In this document: positions 2,340 through 62,887 of the stretch, piece after piece
Layout: every line of letters begins with the position of its first letter
How positions within the stretch are numbered: position 1 is the stretch's first letter
Assembly (NCBI RefSeq): GCF_029867415.1
Contig: NW_026706167.1
Coordinates: forward strand, 1 to 64,000
DNA from: Vicia villosa
Taxonomy: Eukaryota > Streptophyta > Magnoliopsida > Fabales > Fabaceae
Length of the DNA: 64,000 bases
Direction of reading: 5' to 3'
The notes under the pieces: generated by a model
Databases searched by the model: none
What the model was told of the DNA's origin: nothing
Seen by the model: only the letters and a program-made list of their open reading frames with translations
Made by a program: the position numbers and the translations under genes

Positions 2340-3863
2340 ATGGAAAAAAGGTATACCAAAAAGTACGGTTTCAAAGCACCTGATGTAGAAAGACTGATAG
2401 AGTTAGCATCTTCTGTACAAGATCCTTCTAATTTTAGGAAAAGTTATGGAAAGCTTTTGCCTATCTTGAACACTCATGTTGATGAAGGACTTCTCAAAAC
2501 TCTGGTTCAGTTCTATGATCCCATCTACCGTTGTTTTACCTTTCCAGACTACCAGTTGGTACCGACCTTGGAAGAATACGCCAATCTTTTGGGTATTCCC
2601 GTGTCTGACAAAATACCCTTCAATGGTTTGGAAGCCATTCCTAAGTCACACGTCATTGCAGCAAGTATCCACATGAAAAAGTCTGAAGTAGAGAGTAATT
2701 GGACTACCAAAGGAAACCTCCCGGGTTTAACTTCACACTTCCTGGTAAAGAAAGCCTTTGATTTCATCGAAACTGGTAGCATGATAGCTTTTGAAGCTAT
2801 ACTAGCCTTGCTCATCTATGGGTTGGTTCTGTTTCCCAATGTCGACAACTTTGTTGATATCAATGCCATAAAGATCTTTCTGATTGGAAATCCTGTTCCG
2901 ACTTTACTTGGTGACATGTATTTCTCTGTCCATCATAGGAATCGCCAAGGCGGTGGAATCATTGTATGTTGTGCACCTTTGTTGTTCAAATGGATTGTTT
3001 CACACTTACCTGAGTCCCCTATTTTCACGGAAAACCGAGAAGGTTTGCGTTGGCCTCGAAGACTTATGTCTCTTACTAATAATGATATTCATTGGTATAC
3101 CTTGGCTCGCTGTGGTACAGAAACCATTGAAAGTTGTGGAGAGTTCGCCAACGTACCCCTCATTGGTACACAAGGAGGAATTAACTATAATCCGGTCCTA
3201 GCCCGACGACAACTCGGGTATGCAAATTCAGTTACGCCTGTTGGTCCCTCAGTGGAAGGATACTTCTACCGAGAAGGGGATAATCCAAAAAGATTGAAAG
3301 CAAGAATGGTGAGAGCTTGGTACGACGTCCGATGGAAAGAAAAAGGCGAGGAAAGAAATTGCATTGCCATGGATGCCTACACCTGCTGGGTAAAGAAAAG
3401 AGCCAAGGAGTTCCAAATGCCTTATGCTTATGAAAAACCCATGTTTCCTGCAGTATCTCAACGACCCAACATTCCCACTATGAAAGAATACCAAGACACT
3501 TTGGCTAAGATGAGGACAGAAAAAGATTCTTGGGAAGAAAAGTTTCGTAGCACTGAGGTGGAAAATAGAAAGTTGAAGAAAAGAGTGAAAGATCACGAAG
3601 AAACTCTCTATTATCAAGATGGATGGCTCATGAGCAAAGATGAGAAGATTCGCCAGAAAGACGCTGCAATCAAGAGGTACATCAGAGAAAGCAAGAAAAA
3701 TCTAGAAGGCTCGACAAGCAACGCTCCGACTCCTGATGATTGGAAGAATGTTGTTGACAAGCTGAGAGCTGAAAAGGCCGAATTGAAAGCTTACTATGGG
3801 AAAGAAATCATGAAGCTCAAGCTGCACAATGCATTTGGTTCTTCGTCTGATGAAGATGCTTAG
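2340..3863 (+). CDS. Ogre ORF1 protein, function unknown, intact
   Basis: 507 residues from an ATG 477 bases upstream of no other conserved start; the 5' end aligns with the internal Met of the Ogre-2 copy. ORF1 upstream of gag is a hallmark of Ogre elements and its role is not established. Residues about 55-90 (motifs QFYDPIYRCFTFPDYQ, then PTLEEYANLLGIPV) resemble the core of plant-mobile-domain / DUF7745-like proteins; this is recognition by eye, not a search. A second conserved block centres on DINAIKIFLIGNPVPTLL (about 183-200). The C-terminal 120 residues are rich in Lys and Glu and probably form a coiled coil. About 75% of landmark blocks are shared with the Ogre-2 copy at 52390-53823, showing selection on the protein during the family's history. 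Confidence 0.85.
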   Translation: MEKRYTKKYGFKAPDVERLIELASSVQDPSNFRKSYGKLLPILNTHVDEGLLKTLVQFYDPIYRCFTFPDYQLVPTLEEYANLLGIPVSDKIPFNGLEAIPKSHVIAASIHMKKSEVESNWTTKGNLPGLTSHFLVKKAFDFIETGSMIAFEAILALLIYGLVLFPNVDNFVDINAIKIFLIGNPVPTLLGDMYFSVHHRNRQGGGIIVCCAPLLFKWIVSHLPESPIFTENREGLRWPRRLMSLTNNDIHWYTLARCGTETIESCGEFANVPLIGTQGGINYNPVLARRQLGYANSVTPVGPSVEGYFYREGDNPKRLKARMVRAWYDVRWKEKGEERNCIAMDAYTCWVKKRAKEFQMPYAYEKPMFPAVSQRPNIPTMKEYQDTLAKMRTEKDSWEEKFRSTEVENRKLKKRVKDHEETLYYQDGWLMSKDEKIRQKDAAIKRYIRESKKNLEGSTSNAPTPDDWKNVVDKLRAEKAELKAYYGKEIMKLKLHNAFGSSSDEDA

Positions 3864-4211: not shown

Positions 4212-7200
4212 ATGGAACACTCTGAACAAGAGAATATTGAGCTCCGTGGTACAGTGACCACCCTTCAGGAAAAGTTGGAAAGTCTCACTACTCTGGTTGA
4301 CTCCTTAATGGCCGCACAGAATCAGCCGCCGCCACCTAACAGTCAAGCGACGGTAACATCTGAAGTCACTACTCCAGTTTCTACAGTTGCGTTCGGTATT
4401 CCATCTTTCTCCATGCCAGAAGGTTGGGGCCCGCCTTTCAGCTTTGGTACAGGTTTCCGCCATAATTTTTCTGGGGTTCAAACAGCTACAACTGAAGCGC
4501 CTGCTGCACAAGGTTCGGCGTTTATTCCGCATTCAGGGGTAACTTTTTCCCAAATCACTATGGCACTTTCTCAACCTACTATGACAGTTCCGACCCCTAC
4601 GGTTCACACTGTTCCTTATGACGGTAATGAGATTTATCATGATCAGGGTGATAGCACGAATCAGCGTAACCTTGTGGAAGATCTCCAAGAGCAGTTTAAC
4701 AAGATGCAACTGGAAGTTAAAGCTATCCGTGGAAAAGATTTGTTTGGAAAAAATGCCCAGGAGCTATGTTTGGTTCCCAGTGTACAAATACCAGCTAAAT
4801 TCAAGGTCCCAGACTTTGAGAAGTATAAAGGTAGTTCTTGTCCGCAAAGCCATCTTGTGATGTATGCCAGAAAGATGTCTACTTATGCAGATAATCATCA
4901 GTTGCTTATCCATTACTTTCAAGACAGCTTGACTGGTGCCGCACTGAAGTGGTACACAGGCTTGGATAGCACCAATATTCGGACTTTCAATGACCTAGGC
5001 GAGGCCTTTGTCCGACAATACAAGTATAACTCGGATATGGCTCCAGACAGATATCTGCTTCGATCCATGGCTCAGAAAGACCATGAAGCTTTCAAAAAGT
5101 ATGCCCAACGATGGAGAGAAACTGCTGCTCAGATTAATCCACCGTTAAAAGAGAAAGAGATGACAAAGATCTTCTTGAATACTCTCAGTCCGTTTTATTA
5201 TGAACGCATGATTGCTAGTGCTCCAAGTGATTTCACCGAAATGGTAAACATGGGTATGCGTTTAGAAGAAGGAGTCCGAACCGGACGTCTAACTAAAGAA
5301 GGTGGATCTTCAAGCGGAACCAAAAAGTTCGGAAGTGGTTTCCCAAAGAAGAAAGAACAAAGTGTTGACATGGTATCCCAAGGGAGGCCAAAAGGAAATG
5401 TCAATCGTCAACGACAGGTAGCTGCTATTGCGCCAGTTGTTAATACATCACCTAATCCGGGGTTTACTCCGCAGTTTCAACAACAACAGCCTCGACCACA
5501 GGTTCAACAGTTTAACAATAATCAGAATCGTGTGCAAAGAGTTCCACAGTTTGATCCGATTCCAATGACCTACACAGAATTATACCCTGCTTTGATTGAA
5601 AGAGGTCTCGTTCAAACTAAAGCACCACCACCAGTACCTGAGAAACTCCCATGGTGGTACAAAGCTGAGGTCTCATGCCCTTATCATCAAGGAGCGCCTG
5701 GCCATGATCTTGAGCATTGCATAGCTTTGAAATATGAAGTTCAGAGGTTGGTTAGGTCTAATCTCCTCTCTTTCAGAAATTTGAATCCTAATGTGCAAGC
5801 AAATCCGCTGCCCAATCATGGAGGGCATGTTGTAAACATGGTATATGGATGTCCTGGCCAATACCGAGTCTATAATATCAACTTCTCAAGAGCAGATTTG
5901 GTACAAATGCACGCCACTCTTTGTCGGGGGGAGAATTTTCGCCAGCATCAATACGGTTCCTGTAGAATATGTTGTGTGGATCCTCACGGGTGTTCGATTG
6001 TGAGAAGAGATCTCCAAGTTTTGCTAGATAATGGTACTATTGAGATCTACAGAAATAGGGATGAAAATGAAGTTAACATGATAGGATGTTATCCGCATGA
6101 GCTTTTAGTCTCAGATATCAACTCGGAAATGCCTACAGTTAACGTCATCGTTCCTCATTTCAACATGCCTGAGCGCATGGAAGTTACTTACAACAAGCCG
6201 AAGGTTCCTATTGCTCCTTTGATCATTTGTCTACCTGGACCTGTTCCTTATGACTCTGACAAGGCAGTTCCATACAACTACAATGCAACAATGATAAAGA
6301 ACGGACAAGAAGTTCCTTTGCCTACTCTCTCATCCGTTGTAAACATTGCTGATGTAAGTCGAGTAACAAGAAGTGGACGTGTGTATACTCCACTACCTCC
6401 GAAGCAGCCTGTTACTCCTGCAACCGGACAAAATCATGTTGTTACACCAGTAGGGAATCCTGTGGAAACTCCTGTCAGTAATACAAGCACTGATGTTGGT
6501 CAATCTAGTGGAACTAATGTCAATCCTGACTTTGATGAAATTTTGAAACTTATCAAAAGAAGTGAATACAAGATTGTGGATCAGCTTATGCAGACTCCTT
6601 CGAAGATCTCAATACTTTCATTGCTTTTAAACTCAGAAGCCCACAGGGAAGCCCTGATGAAGGTCTTGGATCAAGCTTTTGTAGATCATGATGTGACTGT
6701 TGATCATTTTGATGGGATAATAGCTAACATAACAGCTTGCAACAATTTAAGCTTCTGTGATGAAGAACTCCCCGAGGAGGGCAAAAATCACAACCTTGCT
6801 CTGCACATTTCTATGAACTGTCAGTCAGACTCTTTGTCCAATGTGTTGGTAGACACCGGATCATCCTTGAATGTGATGCCAAAGACGACTCTCGCTCGTT
6901 TGTCTTACCAAGGAATTCCTATGAAGTTCAGTGGTGTAGTTGTCAAAGCATTTGATGGATCGCGAAAATCTGTTATCGGCGAAGTCAACCTTCCCATGAC
7001 AATTGGTCCACATACATTTCAAATCACCTTCCAGGTCATGGACATTCAAGCTGCTTATAGCTGTCTGTTAGGACGACCATGGATCCATGAAGCAGGGGCA
7101 GTAACTTCTACGCTCCATCAAAAGTTAAAATTTGTAACAAATGGAAAATTGGTAACGATAAGTGGAGAACAAGCCTTGTTGGTGAGCCATTTATCCAATT

Positions 7201-8240
7201 TCTCTTTCATAAGTGCTGATGATGTGGAAGGAACGCAGTTCCAAGGTCTCTCTTTAGAAGACGAATCTTCCAAGAAGAAAGCATCAATCTCTTCTTACAA
7301 AGAGGCGGTAAAAGTAGTGAAAGATGGAACTACCACTGGCTGGGGGCAAGTTGTGATCCCTACCAAGAATGAAACCAGAGCAGGACTCGGATGTTCACCA
7401 ACATTCTCAAACTGCACCAAGAAGGATGAAACCCTTCGACCGATTAAAGAAACATTCATTAGTGGAGGATTTCTTAACCCAATTCCTCAAGAGGTTAATG
7501 TCCTTATCGAAGAATGCATCGAAGAAGGTCTCTCCGATGATGAAGAAGAATGGAAATGTTATCTCAATGACTCGGGATACATATCTCAGGAAGAACCATA
7601 TCCTCCTTCAGAGAAATCCAAAGGCAAAGAAACTGAGCCTGTTCCTGCAGAAATCTGGGACACCTTGGGACAACCAAGTGGCAAATTTGATTACATGGTG
7701 AAATATACTGCGCCTGAAAGTTCAAAGATTGCGATTGAAGATGTCCAACCAACTGGATGGGGATATTCCTTTGAACATAATAGTCAACCAGAAGAGGTTT
7801 ATCAGCCCTGTCAATTTTCTCAGCAACCTGAAATTACTGGAGATTTCGGATTCAATGCATCTGCCAAGATTAACAATCCTGAAGATGGTTATTATCACAT
7901 AAATGCCATTTTTGAAGATGAAGGGGAAGATGGTCCCGCAGTTGACTCAGAAAGTGTCGCTGACAATGAGTCTCTTCATCCTGAAGACTGGGAAATACAT
8001 CCTGAAAATTCTGAAGATTGTGACTCGTCTTATGCTCTTCAAGAAGTAGAAGAAGACCGTTTCAACTCTACAAAGAACAAGGGTGACAAACCAGGACCTT
8101 CAAATCCTGCTCGACCAGCGGTCAATGTCAATACTGAAGATAACTCTGAGGAGAATTTTCCTGAATACATAATACACAGAGGAGTTCGTTGCTACTGGAA
8201 AGCTGTCGACGTTCCGAATGTTGTTCGCCGCTCAAAGTAA
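4212..8240 (+). CDS. gag-pro: Ogre-1 gag-protease polyprotein, intact
   Basis: 1342 residues. The N-terminal 40 residues look like a coiled coil, followed by a Pro/Gln/Thr-rich stretch. Residues about 195-320 are the retrotransposon capsid domain (YKGSSCPQSHLVMYARKM, WYTGLD, YAQRWRETAAQI). A nucleic-acid-binding knuckle of C-x2-H-x5-H-x4-C type lies at 488-503. The aspartic protease has DTGS at 881-884 and the LLGRPW motif near 960. Downstream is a Gly-rich segment weakly like a G-patch (about 1050-1075), then an acidic tail. The last codon before the stop overlaps a splice donor (GT at 8237-8238). Splicing to 8592 would continue in frame into RT. Gag alone is expected from unspliced RNA, giving the usual gag excess. 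Confidence 0.93.
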   Translation: MEHSEQENIELRGTVTTLQEKLESLTTLVDSLMAAQNQPPPPNSQATVTSEVTTPVSTVAFGIPSFSMPEGWGPPFSFGTGFRHNFSGVQTATTEAPAAQGSAFIPHSGVTFSQITMALSQPTMTVPTPTVHTVPYDGNEIYHDQGDSTNQRNLVEDLQEQFNKMQLEVKAIRGKDLFGKNAQELCLVPSVQIPAKFKVPDFEKYKGSSCPQSHLVMYARKMSTYADNHQLLIHYFQDSLTGAALKWYTGLDSTNIRTFNDLGEAFVRQYKYNSDMAPDRYLLRSMAQKDHEAFKKYAQRWRETAAQINPPLKEKEMTKIFLNTLSPFYYERMIASAPSDFTEMVNMGMRLEEGVRTGRLTKEGGSSSGTKKFGSGFPKKKEQSVDMVSQGRPKGNVNRQRQVAAIAPVVNTSPNPGFTPQFQQQQPRPQVQQFNNNQNRVQRVPQFDPIPMTYTELYPALIERGLVQTKAPPPVPEKLPWWYKAEVSCPYHQGAPGHDLEHCIALKYEVQRLVRSNLLSFRNLNPNVQANPLPNHGGHVVNMVYGCPGQYRVYNINFSRADLVQMHATLCRGENFRQHQYGSCRICCVDPHGCSIVRRDLQVLLDNGTIEIYRNRDENEVNMIGCYPHELLVSDINSEMPTVNVIVPHFNMPERMEVTYNKPKVPIAPLIICLPGPVPYDSDKAVPYNYNATMIKNGQEVPLPTLSSVVNIADVSRVTRSGRVYTPLPPKQPVTPATGQNHVVTPVGNPVETPVSNTSTDVGQSSGTNVNPDFDEILKLIKRSEYKIVDQLMQTPSKISILSLLLNSEAHREALMKVLDQAFVDHDVTVDHFDGIIANITACNNLSFCDEELPEEGKNHNLALHISMNCQSDSLSNVLVDTGSSLNVMPKTTLARLSYQGIPMKFSGVVVKAFDGSRKSVIGEVNLPMTIGPHTFQITFQVMDIQAAYSCLLGRPWIHEAGAVTSTLHQKLKFVTNGKLVTISGEQALLVSHLSNFSFISADDVEGTQFQGLSLEDESSKKKASISSYKEAVKVVKDGTTTGWGQVVIPTKNETRAGLGCSPTFSNCTKKDETLRPIKETFISGGFLNPIPQEVNVLIEECIEEGLSDDEEEWKCYLNDSGYISQEEPYPPSEKSKGKETEPVPAEIWDTLGQPSGKFDYMVKYTAPESSKIAIEDVQPTGWGYSFEHNSQPEEVYQPCQFSQQPEITGDFGFNASAKINNPEDGYYHINAIFEDEGEDGPAVDSESVADNESLHPEDWEIHPENSEDCDSSYALQEVEEDRFNSTKNKGDKPGPSNPARPAVNVNTEDNSEENFPEYIIHRGVRCYWKAVDVPNVVRRSK

Positions 8241-8591
8241 TCACCTCGCTGTTATTTTGAACTCCTGCCTTGCCCAAAGCAGAGAGATGTTTTATAGGGC
8301 TTTGCTTTTAAATGTTCCGCCCAAATAACTTTGTGTATAGGGCTTTGTTTTAAAAGTTTCCCTCTTTGTCCTGCCCAAGACAAATGAGTTTGTGTTTAGG
8401 GCTTTGTTTCAAAAATGAATCATAAATAAAGTGTCATTTTGAATTCCCTACATTATATGTTTTATTTTTGCTTTTTTTTGGAAATGGTAATCCTAAAAAA
8501 CCAAAATAAAAAAAAAAACTTTTTCAAAAAAAATCTGCATACACTCTTGCATTCATAAATTTTCTGAAATAGATATAAATCACATGTGCAG
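8237..8591 (+). other. Ogre intron between protease and RT (355 bp)
   Basis: Donor AA|GTAATC overlaps the gag-pro stop codon; acceptor TGTGCAG|A lies just after the first ATG of the pol ORF. Both junctions are phase 2, so removal keeps one reading frame. The Ogre-2 copy has the same arrangement (46455 to 46128, donor AA|GTAGGA). A spliced intron at this place is established for Ogre elements. The intron contains three spaced pairs of GCCCAA (8272, 8319, 8373) and TAGGGCTTTG (8295, 8338, 8397). The same words recur in the Ogre-2 intron. Confidence 0.88.
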
Positions 8592-11500
8592 ATTTACTAT
8601 TGATAAACCCATTGAATGCAATAACCCTATGCCCTCTCCCAACTTTGAGTTTCCTGTGTTCGAAGCCGAAGAAGAGGAAGAAGAGGAGATCCCGGACGAG
8701 ATCTCTCGATTACTTAAGCACGAGGAAAGAGCCATTCTGCCTCACAAAGAGCCTTTAGAAAGAATCAATTTGGGTTCTAAAGAAGACAAAAAAGAAGTGA
8801 CCATTGGATCGCTGCTTGATGCTGATGTCAAGAGTAAGTTGACAGACCTTCTCAAAGAATATGTGGACGTGTTTGCCTGGTCCTACCAAGACATGCCTGG
8901 GTTGGATACCAATATTGTTCAGCATTACTTGCCATTGAAGCCAGAATGTCCGCCGGTTAAGCAGAAATTGCGAAGGACTCACCCTGATATGGCTAACAAG
9001 ATCAAAGTGGAAGTTCAGAAACAGCTCGACGCAGGTTTTCTAGTCACCTCCGAGTATCCTCAATGGTTGGCCAACATAGTGCCAGTTCCGAAGAAAGATG
9101 GTAAAGTTAGAATGTGTGTTGACTACCGTGACTTGAACAAGGCCAGTCCAAAAGATGACTTTCCATTACCACATATCGACATGCTGGTTGATAACACTGC
9201 TAAGTTCAACGTCTTTTCCTTCATGGACGGGTTCTCCGGTTATAATCAGATCAAGATGGCTCCCGAAGACATGGAGAAGACATCTTTCATCACCCCATGG
9301 GGTACCTTTTGCTACAAAGTGATGCCGTTTGGATTAAAGAATGCAGGCGCAACTTACCAAAGGGCAATGACTACTCTCTTTCATGACATGATGCATAAAG
9401 AAATTGAAGTTTATGTGGACGACATGATAGCCAAGTCCAGCACAGAAGAAGAACATATTGAATACCTTTTGAAGTTGTTTCAACGACTAAGGAAATATCA
9501 GCTTCGCTTGAATCCTAACAAATGTACTTTTGGGGTTAGATCTGGAAAACTCTTGGGTTTCATTGTCAGCCAAAGAGGTATTGAAGTAGATCCCGACAAA
9601 GTCAGAGCTATTCAAGAGATGCCTGCACCAAAGACTGAAAAACAAGTAAGAGGATTTCTCGGACGATTGAACTATATCTCCAGATTTATCTCTCAAATGA
9701 CTGCTACTTGTGGGCCAATTTTCAAGCTTCTCCGCAAAGATCAAGGGGTTGTATGGACTGAAGATTGCCAGAAAGCGTTTGACAGTATCAAAGAGTACCT
9801 GTTAGAACCACCAATATTGATTCCTCCGGTTGAAGGAAGACCATTAATCATGTACCTTACCGTGTTAGAAGAATCCATGGGTTGTATGCTTGGACAACAA
9901 GATGAAACCGGTAAGAAGGAGCATGCCATCTATTACTTGAGTAAGAAATTCACAGATTGTGAGTCTCGTTACTCCATGCTCGAAAAAACATGTTGTGCTT
10001 TGGCTTGGGCTTCAAAACGTCTCCGCCAATACATGATCAACAATACTACTTGGTTAATCTCCAAAATGGATCCGATCAAGTATGTCTTTGAAAAGCCTGC
10101 ATTAACCGGAAGGATTGCCCGATGGCAAATGCTGTTATCCGAATATGACATTGAATACCGTGCTCAAAAAGCGGTCAAAGGAAGCATTCTCGCCGATCAT
10201 TTGGCGCATCAACCAATTAATGAATATCAATCTCTCAAGTTTGACTTCCCTGATGAAGATGTCTTGTACTTAAAGATGAAAGATTGTGACGAACCGTTAC
10301 CGGAAGAAGGTCCTGAGCCTGGATCACGATGGGGCCTAATTTTTGATGGAGCAGTAAACGCTTATGGCAATGGAATTGGGGCAATCATCATCACTCCCAA
10401 GGGTACTCATATCCCGTTCTCTGCCAGATTGCTATTTGATTGTACCAACAACATCGCAGAATATGAAGCTTGTATCATGGGTCTCGAAGAAGCCATTGAC
10501 TTAAGGATCAAGATCCTCGACATATATGGAGATTCAGCCCTCGTGATCAACCAAATTAAAGACAAGTGGGAAACTTACCACCCTGGCTTGATTCCTTACA
10601 GAGATTATGCAAGACGTCTGTTGACTTTCTTCAACAAGGTTGAATTGCATCATATACCTCGAGATCAGAATCGAATGGCAGACGCCTTGGCTACTCTATC
10701 TTCCATGTTCAAAGTCAATCATTGGAATGATATGCCTAAAGTCAGAATTACGCGCCTTGAAAGGCCTGCCTATGTGTTTGCAACTGAAGCAGTCATCGAT
10801 GATAAACCGTGGTTCCACGACATCAAACGCTTCCTTCAAACTCAAGAGTACCCGCTTGGGGCATCAAACAAAGATAAGAAAACTCTAAGGAGACTTTCTG
10901 GCAGTTTCTTCCTGAACGGAGATGTGCTATACAAAAGAAACTTCGACATGGTTTTGCTCAGATGCGTGGATAGACACGAAGCAGACATGTTAATGCATGA
11001 AGTGCATGAAGGGTCCTTTGGAACTCATTCAAATGGGCATGCAATGTCCAAAAAGATCTTAAGAGCAGGTTACTATTGGTTGACAATGGAATCTGATTGT
11101 TATAAACACGTGAAGAGATGTCACAAGTGCCAGATCTACGCAGATAAGATCCATGTGCCACCGACTCTACTCAACGTTCTCTCATCTCCATGGCCTTTTT
11201 CCATGTGGGGGATCGACATGATTGGAATGATCGAACCAAAAGCTTCAAACGGTCATCGTTTCATCTTAGTAGCAATTGATTACTTCACCAAATGGGTCGA
11301 AGCAGCATCTTACGCCAATGTTACAAGACAAGTGGTGGTGAGATTTATCAAGAATAACATCATTTGCCGATATGGTATTCCCAGCAAGATCATTACTGAC
11401 AATGGTTCAAACTTGAACAATAAAATGATGAAAGAATTGTGTGAGGAATTCAAGATTGAGCATCATAACTCTTCTCCTTACAGACCAAAAATGAACGGCG

Positions 11501-12057
11501 CTGTTGAAGCTGCTAACAAGAACATTAAGAAGATCGTCCAGAAAATGGTCGTCACTTACAAAGACTGGCACGAAATGCTGCCATTTGCTTTACATGGGTA
11601 CCGTACTTCAGTGCGTACTTCAACAGGGGCAACTCCCTTTTCTCTAGTATACGGCATGGAAGCTGTGCTCCCCGTAGAAGTTGAAATCCTATCAATGAGA
11701 GTCCTCATGGAGACTAAGTTATCAGAGGCTGAATGGTGTCAAAGCAGATACGATCAGTTGAACTTAATCGAAGAAAAACGTATGACTGCTCTATGCCATG
11801 GACAGTTATACCAAGCAAGGATGAAACAAGCCTTCAACAAAAAGGTTCGACCTCGTGAATTTCAAGAAGGCGACCTCGTGCTTAAAAAGATCTTGTCTTT
11901 TCAACCAGATTCTAGGGGCAAATGGTCTCCTAATTACGAAGGCCCGTATGTTGTCAAAAGAACATTTTCTGGCGGTGCCATGATTCTTACTACCATGGAT
12001 GGTGATGAACTCCCACATCCTGTGAATGCAGATGCAGTCAAGAAATACTTTGTCTAA
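8584..12057 (+). CDS. pol: Ogre-1 pol: RT, RNase H, archaeal-type RNase H, integrase; intact
   Basis: 1157 codons as an unspliced ORF; the true exon probably starts at 8592. Acidic linker (residues 15-40), then RT with VPVPKKDGKVRMCVDYRDLNKA and YVDD at 277-280. A first gypsy-type RNase H (about 410-480) has lost its first catalytic Asp (the expected TDAS region reads LTVLEES). A second RNase H has the full set D588, E626, D650, D700; Tat/Ogre elements are known for such an added archaeal-type RNase H. Integrase follows: HHCC zinc finger (about 805-855), catalytic D878, D939 and E975 (spacing 35), and a C-terminal GPYVVKR domain. No stop or frameshift. Pro and RT are joined by splicing rather than by frameshifting. 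Confidence 0.94.
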   Translation: MCRFTIDKPIECNNPMPSPNFEFPVFEAEEEEEEEIPDEISRLLKHEERAILPHKEPLERINLGSKEDKKEVTIGSLLDADVKSKLTDLLKEYVDVFAWSYQDMPGLDTNIVQHYLPLKPECPPVKQKLRRTHPDMANKIKVEVQKQLDAGFLVTSEYPQWLANIVPVPKKDGKVRMCVDYRDLNKASPKDDFPLPHIDMLVDNTAKFNVFSFMDGFSGYNQIKMAPEDMEKTSFITPWGTFCYKVMPFGLKNAGATYQRAMTTLFHDMMHKEIEVYVDDMIAKSSTEEEHIEYLLKLFQRLRKYQLRLNPNKCTFGVRSGKLLGFIVSQRGIEVDPDKVRAIQEMPAPKTEKQVRGFLGRLNYISRFISQMTATCGPIFKLLRKDQGVVWTEDCQKAFDSIKEYLLEPPILIPPVEGRPLIMYLTVLEESMGCMLGQQDETGKKEHAIYYLSKKFTDCESRYSMLEKTCCALAWASKRLRQYMINNTTWLISKMDPIKYVFEKPALTGRIARWQMLLSEYDIEYRAQKAVKGSILADHLAHQPINEYQSLKFDFPDEDVLYLKMKDCDEPLPEEGPEPGSRWGLIFDGAVNAYGNGIGAIIITPKGTHIPFSARLLFDCTNNIAEYEACIMGLEEAIDLRIKILDIYGDSALVINQIKDKWETYHPGLIPYRDYARRLLTFFNKVELHHIPRDQNRMADALATLSSMFKVNHWNDMPKVRITRLERPAYVFATEAVIDDKPWFHDIKRFLQTQEYPLGASNKDKKTLRRLSGSFFLNGDVLYKRNFDMVLLRCVDRHEADMLMHEVHEGSFGTHSNGHAMSKKILRAGYYWLTMESDCYKHVKRCHKCQIYADKIHVPPTLLNVLSSPWPFSMWGIDMIGMIEPKASNGHRFILVAIDYFTKWVEAASYANVTRQVVVRFIKNNIICRYGIPSKIITDNGSNLNNKMMKELCEEFKIEHHNSSPYRPKMNGAVEAANKNIKKIVQKMVVTYKDWHEMLPFALHGYRTSVRTSTGATPFSLVYGMEAVLPVEVEILSMRVLMETKLSEAEWCQSRYDQLNLIEEKRMTALCHGQLYQARMKQAFNKKVRPREFQEGDLVLKKILSFQPDSRGKWSPNYEGPYVVKRTFSGGAMILTTMDGDELPHPVNADAVKKYFV

Positions 12058-12080
12058 AAAAGAACAAAAGAACAGCTCGG

Positions 12081-12227
12081 TAAGTCGAAAACCCGCAAAG
12101 GGCGACTTAGGCAAAAATGAGCGTCTCGGTGGACTGAAAACCTGAAAGGGCGGTCCAGGCAAAAATTAGAGACAATAAACAGAAAAAAATTCATCCTGGT
12201 AGATTGAAAACCTGAAAGGGCAATCTA
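12081..12227 (+). promoter_or_regulatory. Array of three stem-loops just after pol stop
   Basis: Three units share one fold: outer 7-bp stem, AAAA bulge on the 5' side, inner 3-bp stem, GAAA or GCAAA loop. Outer stems: TAAGTCG/CGACTTA (12081-12087, 12103-12109), TGGACTG/CGGTCCA (12130-12136, 12151-12157, one U-G pair) and TAGATTG/CAATCTA (12200-12206, 12221-12227). Inner stems are CCC/GGG, CCT/GGG and CCT/GGG. Each unit is followed by AGGCAAAAAT. Ogre-2 has the same three units at the same place with different stem sequences (42564-42714). Confidence 0.85.
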
Positions 12228-12769
12228 GGCAAAAATTAAGGATTTATGACAAAGTAACTGCATCAGTCCGTACTTCGTCACCTGAAGAGTCTGTACTTCA
12301 TCAAAAGGATCTTCGATCAAATCATCGCCAATCTGAAGCGACAAGCACAGTTGGAACTCAAAGTTGTTTAGGGAATAGTGGTTATTGCTTTCAATGTAGC
12401 CTTTTCCGCATAATTACCATTTCCAACTTTTGTAAATACTCCATGGAATCACGCCTTTAGCTGATTACCATCCTATTAAATAAATTTGAGCCTTGTGCCC
12501 ATTTGTTTGCAATCTATAATTTCTTTTAGCCTGCAAAATGACGCTTTAATTGTGTTATTCACTTTTGAAAAAAAAATGAAAAAAAGTTTTAAATGAATTT
12601 ACTTCACTTTTCTTTTTCAAAATAAAAGCGAAATTTTCCTTTGAGTTGTGAACAACGGAAGGAACATCAGCAGTCGTCTCCACAGGATGAACAAAAGGAT
12701 TCTCCCTGAAAAATTGTTGAGACAACGGTATTCTTGTCCCAGAAAAGAATTCTTGAAGCAATTATCCCT

Positions 12770-13559: not shown

Positions 13560-13890
13560 GCCTTATTACTGTTCACAAGGCTGAATAACCAGTAATTTCC
13601 CTAGCAAAGTCTCCAGGATCATTTTATCACTCGGCTGATAATTGATCACGTCTTCAAAACCACTATCACAAGGCTGGTAGTCGGTAACCTTTTGTTCTGG
13701 TTATATTATTCAACATGTCTATCACAAGGCTGATAGTCGGTAATATTAACCGAACCTTTGAAACTCTTTTACCTTGTCAAGTCTATCACCATGTTGATAG
13801 TCGGTAATACAGTTTCATACCTTTCACCTTCGCATTATTAACAAGTCTATCCCTGTGCTGATAGTCGGTAATGTCGATAGGTAAGCTTTT
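13560..13890 (+). repeat. Tandem hairpin repeat CTATCA...TGATAG-TCGGTAAT
   Basis: Four clear and two degenerate units with a spacing of about 50-65 bases. Each clear unit has CTATCA, a variable 6-base loop (CAAGGC, CCATGT and others), then TGATAG or TGGTAG, then TCGGTAAT. The arms stay complementary (one uses G-U pairing) while the loop varies, so the RNA hairpin appears to be the conserved part. Confidence 0.75.
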
Positions 13891-14090
13891 CTTACAAAGC
13901 TATCATTCTCCGGTGAAGCATACACTTGCTTTCCCAAAGAAAAGAAACGGATTCTCTTCCTAAAACGGACTGAGACATCCTTCCCGATCTCTTGTCCCCA
14001 GTGGAGTCAGTCTTGATATCCCTTGGTAAAGATATCCTTGCATCATTCGCGATTTTGGTATCTTAGGTCCAAAATTCGCGTCTTCTGATA

Positions 14091-14169
14091 TTTAAGTCTC
14101 TTCCACCCTATCAAAACGAAGATTTTCAATCTTCATGTCTCAGGTTGAAGAAACTTAAATAGGGGCATC
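14091..14169 (+). promoter_or_regulatory. PPT-bearing stem-loop before Ogre-1 3' LTR
   Basis: The PPT region (AACTTAAATAGGGGCATC) directly abuts the LTR start. TTTAAGTCTCTTC (14091-14103) pairs with GAAGAAACTTAAA (14147-14159), 13 positions with one C-A mismatch. An inner hairpin GAAGATT/AATCTTC (14118-14134) caps it. Ogre-2 has the same outer arms but a different inner stem. Confidence 0.75.
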
Positions 14170-15741
14170 TGTCATACCCCAATTTTTGACCTAAGATACC
14201 ACCTCATATCATTGCATATGCATCATTTGCATCTCTAACAAATTGCATAGCTTGTGTTTGCTACTTGTGACTCAGCAGGATTTAATCAGGAAATCACTCA
14301 TCAATACAAGTAACAATCAATTAGGGTTTTGTTCTCCCTTCATTTCAAATGAATCATCTTCATCAACAATCAACATTTGGTCCTCAGAGATTCATTTCAA
14401 CAAGCTCAAAGGCTCTGAATCAATCAGATTAGGGTTTTGACTGAAGATAGCATACTCCTGACTTTTGCTCAGGATTTGACCTAATGACTTGGGACATGAA
14501 CTCAAGACCCCAAGTGAATCATTTTGACCTAATCCATTGGCTCAAGACATCTCCTACACAAAGATTGATCAGACAAATCCTCAGATCAGGGTTTTGAATT
14601 ATCAGGGACTGAAATCAGGGATCACATTTGGGAAACCCTAAAAATCCCCAGGAAGTCAATCAAAAGTTTCAATCATCCTCAAATAATCCCTATGACAATA
14701 TCCAATGGAAATTACATCTCAATTCAAGATCCACAGTCATCAATTTCATCAGGTCGACAATTAGGGTTTTTGACCTAATTCAGTGAACAACTACCTTTTT
14801 AATCAGGACATGGTGCCACAACTCAAACCATGGCTCAATATCCTCTAAGGCCTCAATATGATCCATTCATACCATTCATATGGTGAGGATAGCCTGTTTC
14901 ATTTGAAATCTCCAGAAACGCGATTCGTTTGAAAAAGTCAACTGTACAAGATCACCATTGACTTTTGGGGAATTTTGGTCAACCATGACTTTTGAAGTTT
15001 TAAATCATCAATATATGATATGAGAAGTCATTTGATCAAGAAAAATCAAGAAAATCAATCAAGAATCAAAAAGTCAAAAGTTTGACTTTCATACTTAGAA
15101 AATTTTTCTAAGTGTTTTTCATGGTTTTTTCCAAACTTTGGAAGGGAATAACTCAAAATTTCACCTACAAACTGAAAAAAACTTCCAACATGAAAGTTGT
15201 AGATTTTGATCCAATAAACAACTTTGACACATATAATTTTTTTCCATAAGATCAACCATTTAAGAGATATGGAACTTCAAAGTTGGTACTTTTTGAAAAT
15301 TTCACTTAAAACTTCATTTTCTTCAAAGTTCATGGATCTTTTTCACCCATTTCCTTAAAGAGTTTGAAGAAACTTTCAACTAGGGTTTTGAAGTGTGTAA
15401 TATGAGCTTTCCAAAATGTCAAAGAGCATGAAAAAATATGGAGTGTAGCCATGGTTTTGAATTTTGACATTAGTGAACTTTTCACTTGAAATTTCAAGTC
15501 ATTTTGCCAAAGTTATGAACCATTTTGCCAAATGATCCAAGTAATGATGCATAGATGCAATAATTGGAGATATTTTTCTGATTTGAGATCAGAATGGAAG
15601 AGGATAAGAAGCTAGAGTTTTAACCATGGTTTAGTCACTTTTAACCATGTGCATTAAATGTAAAGATTCCATTTTATCTTCAAATGCCAAATCACCAATT
15701 CTTGATCAACTTGCAAAGCTTTGTATTCAGAAACCTTGGCC

Positions 15742-15749
15742 TATAAATA
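15742..15749 (+). promoter_or_regulatory. LTR promoter TATA box (TATAAATA)
   Basis: CCTATAAATAGAGG sits 1.57 kb into the LTR. Ogre-2 has the same CCTATAAATAGAGG on the minus strand at 38712-38720 and 58916-58924, about 1.5 kb from its LTR start. Transcription would start about 25-35 bases downstream, making U3 about 1.6 kb. Confidence 0.8.
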
Positions 15750-16696
15750 GAGGTCATTTCACTCTTCAATTCACACCAAAGTCTCACAAATTATAGGCTT
15801 TCTCTTTCTTTCTTGAATTACAAGTTTCATAGTTTTCTAAGAGGTAGAAAACTCAACCTCTAAACCTTGCAAGTTCTGACCAAAGTGATGCTTCCCACAA
15901 ACCATAAACATCACATATGATGTGTTTGAACCATCCACACACCCCAAAAACACCTAAAACTCAAAATCACTACTTCACTTTCCAAATATGCATAACATGA
16001 GACTTATCATGCCAATTTTTATCCAGGCCCATATCTGTCCAAACTAATCATCCAAACACCATCCATGTACCATGTATGAACTATCCCAATCATCATCCAT
16101 GATCTGAAACACTAAAATCATCAAATTCGATCCTCACACCATAGCTCTGCAGATCGGGTGCCACAAACTGATCAAGAGGTTTTCAGTTCATTCCAAGACT
16201 TCAAACATGTTCCATAAGGTCCACTGAAGGTGTTCAGATCAAGAAACAACATCTGGAATCCCTCATTTGCAGAATTCGATTTCCAGTTTTGACATTTTTA
16301 AGGTAAGCTCTCTTGAACTTCAAACTCTATCATACATGCATCATAAATGAAAAACTGCCATGCCATCTTGTTTCTGCATATGTATGGATCATTAACCCTC
16401 AATCAATTGCAACTTATCATGCACACACACGATTTCAGATTGAAACTCAGAATTAGGGTTCTTCGTGTTCATCAGAAAATTAATGATCTTAGAGTGAAAA
16501 TAAATGAAATTAAATGATACCATCATGTTCCTTGTGGAAAATCGAGCAAGATAGGCTATTCACTTGATCAAAACAACTCAGTTTTCAGAAAATTCAAAAT
16601 CAAGTTAGGGATGTGTTCTTGGCGCCATTTTTTGTTCAGAAATTCAAATGGTTCGTTTTAAAATATAACTAAATGGAAGCGTGTTATTTACAAGCT

Positions 16697-16783
16697 GCGC
16701 GCGCAGCTCAGTTGGCAAGTGTTTTGGTTGGTAACCTCCAGGTCGTGGGTTCAAACCCTTGTGAGACCAAACCCTTTTTTTTT
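16697..16783 (+). ncRNA. tRNA-like module in Ogre-1 LTR
   Basis: CAGCTCAGTTGG (16704-16715) matches an A box except for its first base. GTTCAAACC (16749-16757) is a perfect B box at normal spacing. A run of nine T (16775-16783), a pol III terminator, follows directly. A proper anticodon arm is not formed, so this is a tRNA-derived or SINE-like relic rather than a working tRNA gene. The homologous module in Ogre-2 lies at 37681-37752 and 57885-57956 (minus strand). Confidence 0.65.
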
Positions 16784-17377
16784 AACACTATTTTCTTTCA
16801 TTTTCTTTTACAACTTCAATTAATTAATTAACACATCAAATTAATTCATTTTTTATTCATTTTTTGTACACTCTTTATTTAACACATATATTTTATGAAT
16901 ATAAAAAAAAATAACAAAAAAAGATTTATTTAATATGTTTTTAATTAGGTTTAAAATGATACATTTTTAAGTGTTTTTCATTACTTTAAAATTTGTTTTT
17001 TCATTTAATTTTTAACCTAATCACTTGTAAATATTTTTTGTGATCAAACCCTAATCATTTAGGTCTTAATTAAGCATTAAAACTTGTTTTAACTTAATTA
17101 AGTTAACTTTTGTCAAATTCAAATCGTTTTAAGACGAGCGATCGCGATTCTTTTTCAAAACGATAAACCACTTCTTTTTGATTAAATCTTTTTAATTGAT
17201 CAATTGATTTTCAAAACGAAGTGGGGCCTCTCGAATATTAGAGAGTGTAAGTCCCATTTCTTTTCCTTTTGTACAGTTTTTTTTAAAAAACAATAAACTT
17301 CTTCAAAATAAAATCTTTTCAAACAATTTTCAAATCATTTTCAAAACAACAAAACTTCAAATTATCCAAAGCTTTTC

Positions 17378-17655
17378 AAATATACCATGGGCCTCCATGT
17401 AGGTATAAGTCCCAAGCCCCTTTTGTACATACCCTTTCCAGTACATGAAATTAGGTATTTCATTGTACGCCTTTTTTGTACATACACTTTTTGTACATAC
17501 ACTTTTTTGTACATACACCTTTTTGAACATACCTCGATCAGTTTGTTTTTTAAACTTTGAACAACAAATCAAAAATGAAGGTTTCTTTAAATCTTCCCAA
17601 AAATACCATGGGCCTCCATGTAGGTATAAGTCCCAAGCCCTTTTGTAAAAACCTG
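17378..17655 (+). repeat. TTTTGTACATAC repeats flanked by a duplicated segment
   Basis: About five units on the theme TTTTTGTACATACAC (17465-17535), between two copies (about 17378-17434 and 17600-17655) of a 50-base segment containing ATGGGCCTCCATGTAGG. It lies in the LTR part not visible in the 5' copy. Confidence 0.7.
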
Positions 17656-19166
17656 TTTATATAGCTTTGAATAAACTCAAGTGGACTTCTCCCCGAGTGT
17701 GAGTCCCGAGCCCTGTGTATACAAATGGATCATGCTTACAGGTATATTTCCTTCATAAACTCCATTATATACACACACTTTGTCATATATATGTGCTTGT
17801 TCATACTTGTTCATATCTGTTCATATTTGTTCATGTACTCGTTCATGTTTGTTCGTACTTGTTCATGTTTGTGATTGTGTTATATATATTTGTTCAACTT
17901 AGTACAACACTAGGTTCCCCATAGCCTCCTATTGGGCTTCGTGCAAAGAATCTCCACTAGTTAGGTTAGGACATAGAGTATGGTTTCCCGGTGAAATCGC
18001 TCTAAGAGCTCAAACCAACTATACCATGCCTCCCCTTGGGCTTTGTACAAACGAGTGACCCTCCCATAGCCTCCTCTTGGGCTTACAATGCAAGGACCCT
18101 GGATTGTCCCTCCCATAGCCTCCTCTTGGGCTTACAATGTAAGGACCCTCGGATAGCCTCCTCTTGGGCTTCGTACAAGGACCCACGGGCTTCTTATAAG
18201 CATCCCCAATATCCAAATCAAATACCCTAGGAGATTAGACATTTTTCATCTCTATGCTAGGAGTATCTCTTCTATATCATCACAAACAATCAATCAAAAT
18301 CAAACCTTTTTGCCACAAGGCTGGCTAATCAATCAAACCGTTTTGCCACCGTACTGGCTGATTAATCAAAGTTTTTGTCACAAGGCTGACTTCATTGAAA
18401 CTTTTGCCACAAGGCTGGCTGATTAATCAAAGTTTTTGTCACAAGGCTGACTTCATTGAAACTTTTGCCACAAGGCTGGTTAAACACAAAAACATCTTTA
18501 TCATTCTAAGCACCCTAAGTGGCACAGCCCAGGGCTTATAATGAAAAGATTTTCAAACAAATCAAACAAATGTATGTGATGATATAGATTAGATACATCT
18601 AGCATTTAGACGACATTTGTCTATTTTCCTTTGCTTCCACTAGCATAAGTGGGAACTACGATTGCTCTGACTTTCTCAACATCCCTTTGAGAATACGTAG
18701 GCACAAGGTCGATCCTTGGCGAGCAAAACAAAACACAAAAAAAAATCATTCAAACCTTAGCACCCGTAGACCCCGAGCTACAGATGCTCTGATTCCCTCT
18801 AGGGGATATGTATGCAGAGGATCGCGATGATCTTTGCGAGCATAATCAAACAAACACCTTAGGTCCCACCTATTTCACAAGAACCTCTCAATAACATGGA
18901 ATGAAAAACAAAGCAAAGAAACCTATAGAGTACTATAGATACGTTGGGTGCTAATACCTTCCCTTCGTATAACCAACCCTCTTACCCAAAGATCTCTCCC
19001 CCCACTTTTAGGTTATTGCAGCTTTTTTCCTTTTCCTCCTTTGGAAATAATAAAAAGTTTGGTCGAAACAAAAGAAAAATCATTTTTTTTGAGCACTCGA
19101 GCCCAAAGAAGGCATCAGGTGTCTCATCCCACAAAAGAGGAACAAAACGGTTTTTCGCCCGCGACA

Positions 19167-19448
19167 CAAATGAATTGAACTTGTCTCTTCCAATCAAAGC
19201 CTTTAATTGAGGTTTATGAAACCGTGATTCCTGAGGATGATGAAGGTATATTAATCAGATGAAACCCCATATGCTGTTCTTTCAATCCAGAATTTCACAA
19301 TAGAAGTTCTTTTCTCATCAATTTTCTTGGGCAATATCAATAATATGAATGGATGTATTGGATGAATGGCCTATATGAAGTATGTACATGAATATGATGT
19401 GAGGGCCAATTGGGTAATAAATAAGTGGGCAAATTTTGGGGTGCAACA
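19167..19448 (-). mobile_element. LTR start fragment of a minus-strand element
   Basis: On the minus strand the segment starts TGTTGCACCCCAAAATTTG at 19448 and runs to the Ogre-1 junction. GGAAG at 19449-19453 is the candidate target duplication. It lies inside the Athila integrase reading frame, so it inserted into Athila and was then split by Ogre-1. Its first two dozen bases resemble the start of the solo LTR at 19567; the rest differs. Confidence 0.75.
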
Positions 19449-21962: not shown

Positions 21963-24281
21963 AAGCTGCATATTTCACAAACAAGGGAGAGCCAAGACAC
22001 CCACGAAAATATAGCAAGCATAGCATAGAAACACACCAAAATTCTCTCAAAATTCCATAATTTTGTAATTTTCAATTTCCATATTCCAATCAATATTAAT
22101 ACAAACAAACACTTTCAATCATCTTCTAAGATCATATAGAGTAAGAATAAACTCTTTGTGTGGTCCCATGAGAGTCGTAGCACGTGCCTAGTGTTCTTCA
22201 TGTTCATATGTGATCAATTTTTGTTTTCCTATATTCAATCAGTCTCAATGTAATCTAATCATCCTAATGTGTTCATGAGGCCTCATAGGGTAGATCTGGG
22301 CTCTAACATGTGAGTTTCCACGTGAGGATAGATCTATGCCATTAACAAGTGTTCTTGCATGCTTAAGCTTTAACCTCTTCGAATCCATAGCTACAGTGCC
22401 CAAATAGCAAAACTAACACCACCATCATGTTCAGGAGGTGATTTTAAGTCGATCTGGGTCACTTGTTTTTATTTCTAACGTTTATTTTTGCAGGTGAGGG
22501 AAGCTACCAAAAATGGCGTTTCTGATGTACAAATAGGGGAGGTTAAAAGCCCCCGCTATCTGTTTAAAAAATAAAGGAGCTGAAGGTTGAAGACGACCAC
22601 GCGTCCCAGCGTGGTTCGCCAGTCAACTTGTCTTCGTCCACACAAGCAACGTGGGTCCCACTCACTTAAAATCTGAAAAAAAAAAAAAAGAGAAACAGTT
22701 GGACTGGGCCTAACACGTATCACTATCCACACCCCTGGTTTCTGGCCCAAAAGCACCTCTTGAACTAAACTCAGTTCTCTTTCAGGTTTGCTTAATACAC
22801 CCCCTGCAGGTTTTAATTAATAAATTTCTATATTTTGCATTTTTATTAAAATCAACCAATCATAAAACACCAAAAATATTTTATTTTTAATTTTTAATCT
22901 GATAAAATATTTACTTATTTTTAGGCATAAAAATATTAATATTTAATTTAAATTAAGGCTATTTTGTATAATTAATTAGTATATATTTATATATTTGCTT
23001 TTTAATTATTCTAACCAATCAAAAAATCATAAAAAAATTTGTTCTTTATATAAAATATTGTTTATATATTATAAACTAATTTTGTACATATTTTGAATAA
23101 TTCTCTTTTTAAGTTTTAATTATTTGTATAATTATTTACATAATTATGTTTTAATTAACTTAAATCAATTGCAAAAAAATTCCAAAAAAAAATTAGTTTT
23201 GTTTAAAATTAATTAACAAATATTTTGTACATATTTTAAACTTAATTTCTAGGTTTAAATCTATTTTCATCTTTTTCTTCATTTTAATTTAATTAATCAT
23301 GCATTAATTATAATTAAAATCAATCATAAAAATCCAAAAACAGGCCTTTTATTTTCCTTGCAATTTAAATTCCTAGATAAATGTATAGGATGTCAAATTC
23401 ATGTAAATAGGCTAGTTTACATTTCCTGCACAATCGATGTAATAGCGTAGATTTATTTTCCGCACTTTACATTTCCGCATTTTAATTTCCAGCAAATATA
23501 AACTGCGTGTATGTCAAAGATAAAATTGAACCGTTAGATCACTAACTTCAAAGATAAATATCTGAATACAAACACAATCACACTTGCACCTCTTAAGGTA
23601 AATCCCTTCTCATTCTTTTCAAAATCAAAGTCAAAATTCCACTGTTTTGAGTACAAAATCGAACCTTGCGTTTATATCCGGTGAAAGGATAGATTTTTAA
23701 AGGAAATAGGATAAAGACCTTACAACTCAGGGTAGACCTCCTAGTTTGCTTGCTCAAATCAAAACAAACAAAATTCTCATACACTGTTGTTTTTCAAAAC
23801 AAAACTTTCCAAAAAGACAATACTTTGTATACATCCAAACACGGATTATTACAAAGTTAACGTTCTTTTCAAAACATCTTTCGAAAGATAAACAAGCATT
23901 TTGTATACATCCACACACGGATCATTACAAAATTCAATTTACAAAAGTATTTGAAACCACATATGAGCATTCTAAAGCAATTGAAAAGTGATCGAAAAAC
24001 AAGTGAGCTAAGCAAACTTAAGAGCCCATGGATAACCATGGATACAAAGGGTGCTAACACCTTCCCTTTGTATAACCTACCCCCTTACCCAGAATTTCTT
24101 ATAGGTCTTTTTTCTGTTTCTTTTATAAACCTTTCCTTAATTGGATAAAATAAAAGGTCGGTGGCGACTCTGTGAATTTTCAAAATGCGAAAGCATTAAG
24201 CGATAAAAAAGAGTCAGTTCACGTATCTCTACAGAACAGAGGTATGGCCCGGGATTAAAAAAATCGGAGGTCCACACATTC

Positions 24282-26250: not shown

Positions 26251-26253
26251 CCA

Positions 26254-27330: not shown

Positions 27331-27377
27331 GGTTCCAAAAGCTTATGAATTTGAAGTCAACTTTTGAGCTATTTGAC

Positions 27378-41800: not shown

Positions 41801-42563
41801 GCTTTAATGACTCGGGCATTCACATGATCAAAGCCTGACTCGACTATGCAGTTATAATGTATGCATGAATATTATGACAAATATAAAATGTAAAGTGAAA
41901 GTGAATAGAATTGTCGCGGATGTAAAATCCTATGATACGACTTGAATCTTGTTGATCAGAAGATGTCCTCTTCTTGTAGTTCGAACTCTGTCGGGAATAC
42001 CTGGTTATCAGTTGTCCGCTGTCCGAAGTGAGTAATATGAATTGAAGTGAAGATCCGTCATCGGGAGATGTTCGCAAAGCGACCTCATGGGGAAATCTTG
42101 GTTCCCGGAGTCTCAACCGTTCTCGGAGTAGCTGTTTGCATTCTTCCTATTGTTTGTAAACCTTAGAAAGAAAATTTCACCTCTATTTTTTGCAAGTAAA
42201 TTCATTTTATTTTATGAAAACATTTGTTTCAAGAAAATGACTGCTTAAACTTAAAATGCATTTCAAGAAACTGAATAAGACTCGATTTGCAAAGAAAGCA
42301 CAAGGCTCAAATTATTATATATGGAATGGTAATCAGGCAAATGCTTGATTCCATGGAGTATTTACAAAGTTGGAAATTGGTAATTTTTCGGGAAAAGGGC
42401 TACGATGAAACGTGACGACCGTTATCTTTCCCTTCCACTCCGAGTTGCGCTGTATTCGTGCTTCGTAGAAGATGACCTACTACTGATGAATACTCCGCTA
42501 TGGATTTTTGAATGATCAAGTTTGTCCTGAACACAGTTACTTGCCATATATCCCTAACTTTTG
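41801..42563 (-). other. Ogre-2 3' UTR, unstructured part
   Basis: About 760 bases between the hairpin repeats and the hairpin array. Nothing recognisable beyond weak similarity to the Ogre-1 stretch at 12240-12540 (shared blocks around CCATGGAATC and TTTGTAAATACTCC). Confidence 0.6.
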
Positions 42564-42714
42564 CGTAAACAACCCCTTTCGGGTTTTAAGTCTACCGGGA
42601 TTGATTATTTATTTTTTTATGTCTCTAAATTTTGCCTGAATCGCCCTTTCGGGTTTTCGATTCACCGAGACGCTCTTTTTTGCCTAAGTCGCTCTTTGCG
42701 AGTTTTCAACTTAG
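42564..42714 (-). promoter_or_regulatory. Array of three stem-loops after Ogre-2 pol stop
   Basis: In element sense: CTAAGTTG/CGACTTAG (U-G at one pair; inner CTC/GAG, GCAAA loop); TGAATCG/CGATTCA (inner CCC/GGG, GAAA loop); GTAGAC/GTTTAC (one G-U; inner CCC/GGG, GAAA loop). All have the AAAA bulge. Compared with Ogre-1 unit 2 (TGGACTG/CGGTCCA), two pairs changed on both sides and a U-G became C-G; unit 1 also changed its inner stem from CCC/GGG to CTC/GAG. Stem sequence drifts, fold stays. Confidence 0.85.
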
Positions 42715-42734
42715 CGAGCTGTTCTTTTAATTAT

Positions 42735-62874: not shown

Positions 62875-62887
62875 TGGCATCAAGAGC
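62875..62887 (+). promoter_or_regulatory. Copia primer binding site
   Basis: TGGCATCAAGAGC resembles the TGGTATCAGAGC site used with initiator tRNA-Met by most plant copia elements; it has one substitution and one extra base. Confidence 0.75.

Follow-up and report, generated by a model that had tools for sequence, protein, structure and literature searches.

The window analysed here, a 64-kb stretch of Vicia villosa DNA, carries two Ogre-type LTR retrotransposons in opposed orientations, E1 on the plus strand and E2 on the minus strand (Table 1). Ogre elements are defined, in the accessible text of PMC6317226, by an extra RNase H domain lying between those of RNase H and integrase, and their gag-pro and RT-RH-INT reading frames are parted by an intron with a mean length of 274 bp. 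The pol of E1 encodes a second RNase H domain (RVT_3, at 595-704) between RT_RNaseH (419-521) and rve (871-968), and E1 gag-pro and pol are two open reading frames 343 nt apart (8241-8583), a gap that may be such an intron. The extra open reading frame of Ogre is also present, as a DUF7745 frame upstream of gag. The protein features of E1 and E2, a second RNase H and separate gag-pro and pol frames, fit the Ogre elements described in that source. A pattern scan for a CCHC zinc knuckle found none in the E1 gag-pro frame (4212-8240), in E1 ORF1 or in the E2 frames. The LTR of E2 starts at 40228 (minus strand).

Several other features of the window deserve mention. A 60-nt LTR block (493-552 and 36495-36554) is 92% alike between the two Ogre families, and the remaining matched LTR stretches are 75-86% alike. 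The presumed E1 gag-pro/pol intron contains three imperfect 34-nt repeats with TAGGGCTTTG at 8279-8414, the fold of which is not unusual (z -0.92). Elsewhere lie a broken Ty3/gypsy element at 24255-28033 (minus strand), a copia-type gag open reading frame at 62874-63977 (plus strand) and a near-perfect inverted repeat at 33333-33471 (62-nt arms, 97%) that matches MIR2593 in Rfam on both strands and resembles a small hairpin-type transposon more than it does a miRNA gene.

Behind the pol stop codon of each Ogre element is an array of three tandem structured units, spanning 12075-12243 (plus strand) in E1 and 42550-42719 (minus strand) in E2. The original prediction, made from the letters of the window, was that six units of a common fold are shared by two Ogre families. 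All six proved present as claimed, and folding revealed in addition an outer stem that closes every unit and was absent from the first description, the arrays being wider than first noted. Each unit begins with the outer stem (4-5 bp), which is followed by GG (or GC), a 7-bp stem, an AAAA bulge on the 5' side and a 3-bp stem. The loop, GAAA or GCAAA, is followed by the return of both stems, then GGCAAAAAU or GGCAAAAAUUA, and finally the second strand of the outer stem. The E1 array begins 17 nt past the pol stop; units 1 and 2 abut (12122/12123), and a 19-nt linker separates them from unit 3. Unit 3 of E2 carries CGCAAAA in place of GGCAAAA. Scored with a covariance model of the six, the window units reached 61.5-77.5 bits, and no place in the window outside both Ogre arrays exceeded 17.2 bits, the next best score. 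We rejected a weak model match at 22787-22819 (E 0.063), seemingly behind another Ty3/gypsy element, as no pol end was readable there.

Table 1. Features of the two Ogre elements and their hairpin units, with positions in the 64-kb window and covariance-model scores.
Feature	Position	Strand	Remarks
E1 ORF1 (DUF7745), 5' of gag	2340..3863	+	
E1 gag-protease ORF	4212..8240	+	
E1 pol ORF	8584..12057	+	RT, RNase H, second RNase H (RVT_3), integrase
E1 pol stop codon	12055..12057	+	ends ORF 8584-12057
E1 unit 1	12075..12122	+	outer GCUC/GAGC, 7 bp, AAAA, CCC/GGG, pentaloop GCAAA, GGCAAAAAU; 68.3 bits
E1 unit 2	12123..12173	+	outer GUCUC/GAGAC, 7 bp, AAAA, CCU/GGG, GAAA, GGCAAAAAUUA; 76.5 bits
E1 unit 3	12193..12243	+	outer AUCCU/AGGAU, 7 bp, AAAA, CCU/GGG, GAAA, GGCAAAAAUUA; 75.0 bits
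E1 3' LTR	14170..19170	+	start TGTCATACC placed by likeness to E2 LTR start; end approximate, taken from 5'/3' LTR alignment
E2 unit 3	42550..42601	-	outer AUCCC/GGGAU (compensated); top two pairs of 7-bp stem unformed; 68.2 bits
E2 unit 2	42621..42671	-	stem UGAAUCG/CGAUUCA, two pairs compensated relative to E1; 77.5 bits
E2 unit 1	42672..42719	-	inner CUC/GAG, compensated relative to E1 CCC/GGG; 61.5 bits
E2 pol stop codon	42735..42737	-	pol spread over several ORFs

Further structured or conserved stretches occur downstream of the array. A second conserved non-coding block lies about 160 nt past it, at 12402-12476 (plus strand) and 42321-42395 (minus strand); E1, E2-type copies and the genomic loci L137 and L140/L141 have this block, 80-85% alike, and blastn found none in L108 or L149. 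Ahead of the E1 3' LTR, at 13625-13871, there are four to five tandem units of CTATCA-loop-TGATAG followed by TCGGTAA, small palindromic hairpins with a nearly invariant stem sequence. Between these and the LTR is a 19-nt inverted repeat (14089-14161) whose 3' arm enters the polypurine stretch before the 3' LTR (14170). The E2 LTR is preceded by letters close to those of this inverted repeat, and by its sequence the polypurine tract may sit in an RNA hairpin in both elements.

It had been claimed that the stems differ between the two families yet stay paired. Our counts agree, with standard pairs in 86 of the 88 pair cells of the six units and compensatory types in 9 of the 15 pairs; the two unpaired cells are the top pairs of E2 unit 3. 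Between orthologous units of E1 and E2, five pairs have changed on both sides and been kept, five have changed on one side and been kept, and two are broken, both in E2 unit 3. Random placement of the E1/E2 substitutions gave equal pairing in 31 of 100,000 trials and equal compensations in 251 of 100,000. When the 10 inner pairs of the six units were compared with shuffles, none of 500 attained the observed pairing or covariation score, and 10 of 500 attained the count of pairs changed on both sides. Additional pair types in the six units showed no excess over shuffles (481 of 500 as high). The array (155 nt) is 85% identical between E1 and E2, and the adjacent pol segments are 77% and 80% identical.

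A sense RNA had been proposed from the U-G pairs, and this too is borne out, the window units having five G-U cells versus no A-C cells. Shuffled sequences folded as well as the sense strand in 3 of 200 cases for E1 and 2 of 200 for E2, and the E1 antisense strand folds no better than shuffles (44 of 200 as good).

We scanned the Vicia villosa assembly, 2,034,964,285 bases (2.03 Gb), for further copies. The pattern GAAAACCYGNAAAGGGC had 2626 matches and its reversed control none; a loose pattern in which the unpaired letters and one pair were fixed had 28,324 (14,074 + 14,250), its reversed control four. The loci studied were drawn from the first 100 places per pattern, most of them on one contig (C1), and L096-L100 were excluded from the lists as the same sites as L088, L090, L091, L093 and L094. 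Removal of rows with identical arrays, and filtering of unrelated short matches by loop and stem letters, yielded a set of 47 distinct loci that includes both window elements. An integrase C-terminus lies upstream of the array in all 47. By a simple descriptor, which accepts a unit if 8 or more of its 10 inner pairs form, 39 of these loci have three units, six have two and two have one. Some of the loci below three carry further, variant units: scored with the covariance model, L111 has three units in all and L150 four, the weakest at 25.6 bits. The variants are without the AAAA bulge, and (G)GCAAAA still follows them. GAAA is the commonest loop, and GCAAA, GTAAA, GGAA and a few AAAA also occur. 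Among the 39 three-unit loci, 38 have the pol stop 12-29 nt ahead of the first 7-bp stem, L101 being the exception.

E1 was compared with five other families in bins from -400 to +700 nt. Within the array, which takes up three 50-nt bins, identity is 72-94%; it falls to 40-68% in the bin that follows and to 26-54% in the two beyond. Over the whole stretch compared, identity peaks at the first array bin in every one of the five comparisons (with a tie in L101). Further downstream identity climbs again in two of the five families, to 82% in E2 and 76% in L140, in one bin each. The likeness of copies could come partly from their youth, yet the drop to 26-54% is reached within about 150 nt of the array end.

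The larger sample allowed covariation to be examined on a broader footing. From 50 sources the covariance model retrieved 152 units at E <= 0.001, of which 150 were aligned (alignment A7, fitted to the model, as was A8) and 80 are distinct. Among the distinct units 96.8% of 1108 cells are paired, and 182 cells in 10 pairs have changed on both sides. The original prediction was to fall if a large alignment lacked covariation; here the observed pairing and covariation score were attained by none of 500 shuffles. For pairs with double changes, 8 of 500 shuffles attained the observed number. Further pair types again showed no excess (500 of 500 shuffles as high) and do not help the case. The weakest pairs are the outermost, which fails in 14 of 79 units, and the uppermost pair of the 7-bp stem, which fails in 11 of 79. 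As a check free of the descriptor, we took 23 distinct matches from 30 loci to the loose pattern, which fixes one pair only and none of those in the long stem: the long stem is paired at 7 of 7 positions in 22 and at 6 of 7 in the remaining one. A strand-swap control of 529 combinations, own partners included, gave 7 of 7 in 156 and 6 of 7 in 259, the combinations often pairing because the stems resemble one another.

Since shuffles leave relatedness in place, changes were also mapped on a tree. The tree was built from the sequence upstream of the array in 39 three-unit loci, omitting loci with identical upstream sequence, those whose upstream stretch was shorter than 400 nt and those in which the descriptor did not find three units, and these 39 are not quite identical to the 39 three-unit loci of the 47-locus count. 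Ten double compensations were placed on it, six on inner and four on tip branches, a second finding in favour of covariation. Unselected transitions give G-U and A-C equally often. On the tree, Watson-Crick pairs became G-U in 28 events and A-C in four, all of the latter on tips (12 versus 0 on inner branches), and the split of 28 to 4 has a binomial probability of 1e-5; eight other pair breaks were counted, six of them on tips. A descriptor threshold lowered from 8 to 6 of 10 pairs altered none of these counts. In the unit alignment the cell counts are 105 G-U versus 9 A-C. The excess of G-U over A-C therefore argues that selection acts on the sense RNA. Unpaired columns are conserved at 1.69 bits and paired columns at 1.34 bits, and by this higher conservation the single-stranded letters are predicted to matter most. 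Taken at the level of sequence, a sense-strand RNA element under selection, common to many Ogre families of one genome, is strongly supported.

The most distant family we found, represented by L101 (10-kb stretch L162, G000:C1:16961000-16970999), shares 29.8% amino-acid identity with E1 in ORF1 and 28-33% in pieces of pol. Its three units are all fully paired. L162 is without pol residues 268-1060, such that residue 267 is followed by 57 nt and then by residue 1061, and tblastn detected no gag in it. A 301-nt query across the deletion junction matched the genome at 32 places, and at 30, own locus included, the match was near full length at 84-100%. Three units are present in 19 of the 20 further pol-deleted copies that were read, the exception, L172, having unrelated sequence there; these copies contribute 28 distinct units in which 97.4% of 390 cells are paired. 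The array has thus been kept in a family that became amplified with most of its pol missing, which argues for a function in cis on RNA. In L101 the pol-end frame is an open stretch of about 70 codons that crosses the array and stops in unit 3, and an integrase tail reduced to a short frame through the array weakens ideas built on pol termination.

Translations of the array have entered public protein collections. The +1-frame translation of units 1-2 had 19 matches among public proteins, 18 of them below E 0.001, and a second search with these 18 matches as query retrieved at least 458 short translations with E values no higher than 10. Among the 120 matches listed, 119 were tagged jgi or ena and one was from pea, Lathyrus oleraceus (P0118); used as a query in turn, the pea protein matched nothing but itself. 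Translations of units 1-2 (P0001-P0123) stand publicly as small hypothetical proteins, for example pea KIW84_020134, and translated units 1-2 are a source of spurious gene calls.

We regard the array as almost certainly a cis-acting RNA element, judging from its sequence. Our tentative proposal for its role, which draws on analogy as well, is that a host RNA-binding protein docks on the array and thereby serves export or persistence of the genomic RNA. The tandem structured units at the pol end of Ogre genomic RNA, usually three, would act in cis on the sense strand, with the paired parts as a scaffold and the AAAA bulge, the GNRA-like loop and the GGCAAAA strand opposite GG as the putative protein contact surface. 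Repetition of the unit would raise avidity. The partner would be a conserved host RNA-binding protein that, once bound, would let the long, partly intron-retaining genomic RNA exit the nucleus or persist in the cytoplasm. A host partner seems likelier than the element's own Gag because the unpaired letters are constant while the proteins drift to about 30% identity, and yet recombination between families could keep arrays alike without a common host ligand. Splicing affects only a subset of Ogre transcripts according to the accessible text of PMC6317226, and the need of genomic RNA for export or persistence is met elsewhere by CTE/RTE-type elements, as set out in parts of PMC12786077. The array sits on spliced and unspliced RNA alike and alone cannot distinguish them. 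An export or packaging role had been suggested from the outset; the structural half of that suggestion held, and the functional half, which we retain as a proposal, gains from the pol-deleted family keeping the array. Retention in that family fits packaging as well as export.

Packaging is the alternative we take most seriously, as a possible but somewhat unlikely one. The array would be a packaging or dimerisation signal to which Gag or a particle protein binds and by which genomic RNA is picked, helper proteins packaging the pol-deleted relatives. A packaging signal is expected to be kept in cis after gene loss, and this trait is seen in the 30 places with one pol-deleted arrangement and in the further copies that retain the trio; the position and tandem layout of the array fit as well. 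The lack of a CCHC zinc knuckle in the frames scanned makes an unusual structured target plausible. A Gag-RNA pair would, however, be expected to drift together, and the unpaired letters are near-constant at about 30% protein identity. For dimerisation in particular, most loops are GNRA-like and not self-complementary, which makes kissing dimers unlikely. Weighing these points by analogy, export or stabilisation via a host factor is our first guess, and packaging by Gag a near second.

An unlikely alternative is a shield against nonsense-mediated decay in the style of Rous sarcoma virus, in which structures and A-rich strands behind the pol stop would mask the long 3' part of the RNA. The short and regular distance from the pol stop to the first 7-bp stem suits this idea, as does the length of what trails the E1 array, about 1.9 kb and then the LTR. 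It sits poorly with the L101 frame that passes through the array, and with the public translations, in which the pol frame enters units 1-2 in 59 of 123 by a rough pattern count; ribosomes would melt such units. PTBP1, the protein partner of the Rous sarcoma virus stability element (RSE), prefers pyrimidine-rich sites, and the conserved unpaired letters of the array are mostly A and G.

It is very improbable that what is conserved is a basic peptide at the C-terminus of pol (in one frame, GDLGKNERLGGLKTRKGGPGKN), with the hairpins a by-product. That frame is the one with the many public matches, and the end of pol is in the same frame in the 59 translations just mentioned, but in all but one of the three-unit loci, both window elements included, pol stops ahead of the array, and in the window the frame is interrupted by stops. 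Nor would a peptide account for the outer stems, for the pairs restored by compensation or for the excess of G-U over A-C. That the array is a mere hypervariable tandem repeat of the Ogre/Tat 3' part, its pairing due to duplication history or chance, we consider scarcely credible: such repeats behind pol are usual in Ogre/Tat by the accessible text of PMC7004042 and PMC11963269, and the window has others, but the stems vary between units and remain paired, identity is highest at the first array bin in every family comparison, and 87 bacterial and viral places with the loop letters reach 8 of 10 pairs at best.

Three further candidates were rejected. The 87 loop-letter matches (81 + 6), from scans of viral contigs and of bacterial and archaeal genomes, are chance rather than viral or prokaryotic relatives, and an integrase search of viral contigs found no relative. 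A polypurine plus-strand primer (AAAGGG) does not fit, as pairing is what is kept and the L111 variant unit is without that run. For a self-cleaving RNA, there was no Rfam ribozyme match on the array.

Rfam 15 places no family on the array, its best match there being a group II intron that falls far short of its cut-off of 32 bits (11.7 bits, E 9.7), and the only gathering-threshold hits in the window are to MIR2593, at 33345-33459. A match to a described RNA family, taken as a trait of the retroviral and retrotransposon transport elements CTE, RTE and MTE, is thus one that the array does not have. The original prediction knew of no description of the element. Rfam and the literature searched agree with this, short of the original Ogre papers and most subscription papers; Neumann 2003, Macas and Neumann 2007, Steinbauerova 2008 and Macas 2009 lie outside that literature and may hold one. 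The stretch between pol and the 3' LTR of Retand, a sister lineage of Ogre, is the subject of a 2025 paper whose main text, as far as accessible, is without the terms hairpin, stem and secondary structure (PMC11963269).

If our proposal is true, the array would be the first structured genomic-RNA signal for plant LTR retrotransposons within the literature searched. The nuclear exit of plant LTR-retrotransposon RNA is said, in parts of PMC12786077, to lack any direct study, and the array would offer a concrete handle on such export, being compact, covarying and fixed in place. The RNA structure could also identify Ogre-type elements and their defective derivatives at protein similarity down to 30%. 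Ogre makes up 45% of the Lathyrus sativus genome, as given in the accessible part of PMC7004042.

Comparison with known systems places the array among several kinds of element. The hypervariable tandem repeats of Ogre/Tat share its 3' region and tandem layout; they vary in sequence and monomer length (PMC7004042, accessible part), whereas the array is conserved across families with compensatory change. If bound by Gag, the array would be a genomic-RNA signal of the same kind as the packaging regions of Ty1/Ty3 and retroviral psi. Retroviral psi packaging targets are hairpins. Unlike these signals, the array lies behind pol, and Ogre gag-pro has no CCHC knuckle that we could find; Ty3 packaging requires the NC domain of Gag, as stated in the portion of PMC4974528 consulted.

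The RSE of Rous sarcoma virus is 155-400 nt long, lies behind gag and has PTBP1 as its partner (PMC5580461, accessible text). In 38 of 39 loci with three units the array resembles it in lying directly behind a stop codon with a long untranslated stretch after it; the array differs in following pol, in being A-rich and in being, in some families, in frame or without a nearby stop. Like the array, the CTE of Mason-Pfizer-type retroviruses, the RTE of IAP and the MTE of musD are structured cis-acting elements. Elements of the CTE type lie 3' of genes, and the CTE has repeated internal loops. The array departs from them in its plant host and in being made of small individual units, every one of which has a closing stem, an AAAA bulge and a GNRA-like loop to itself. 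In the mouse LTR elements, RTE and MTE serve RNA that bypasses splicing, as described in parts of PMC12786077. By analogy, and with more reserve than we attach to docking itself, the array may be a lineage-wide RNA module of plant LTR retrotransposons, a counterpart of the CTE that would be read by a host protein, whose loops would outlast the proteins of the element and which defective relatives would use in trans.
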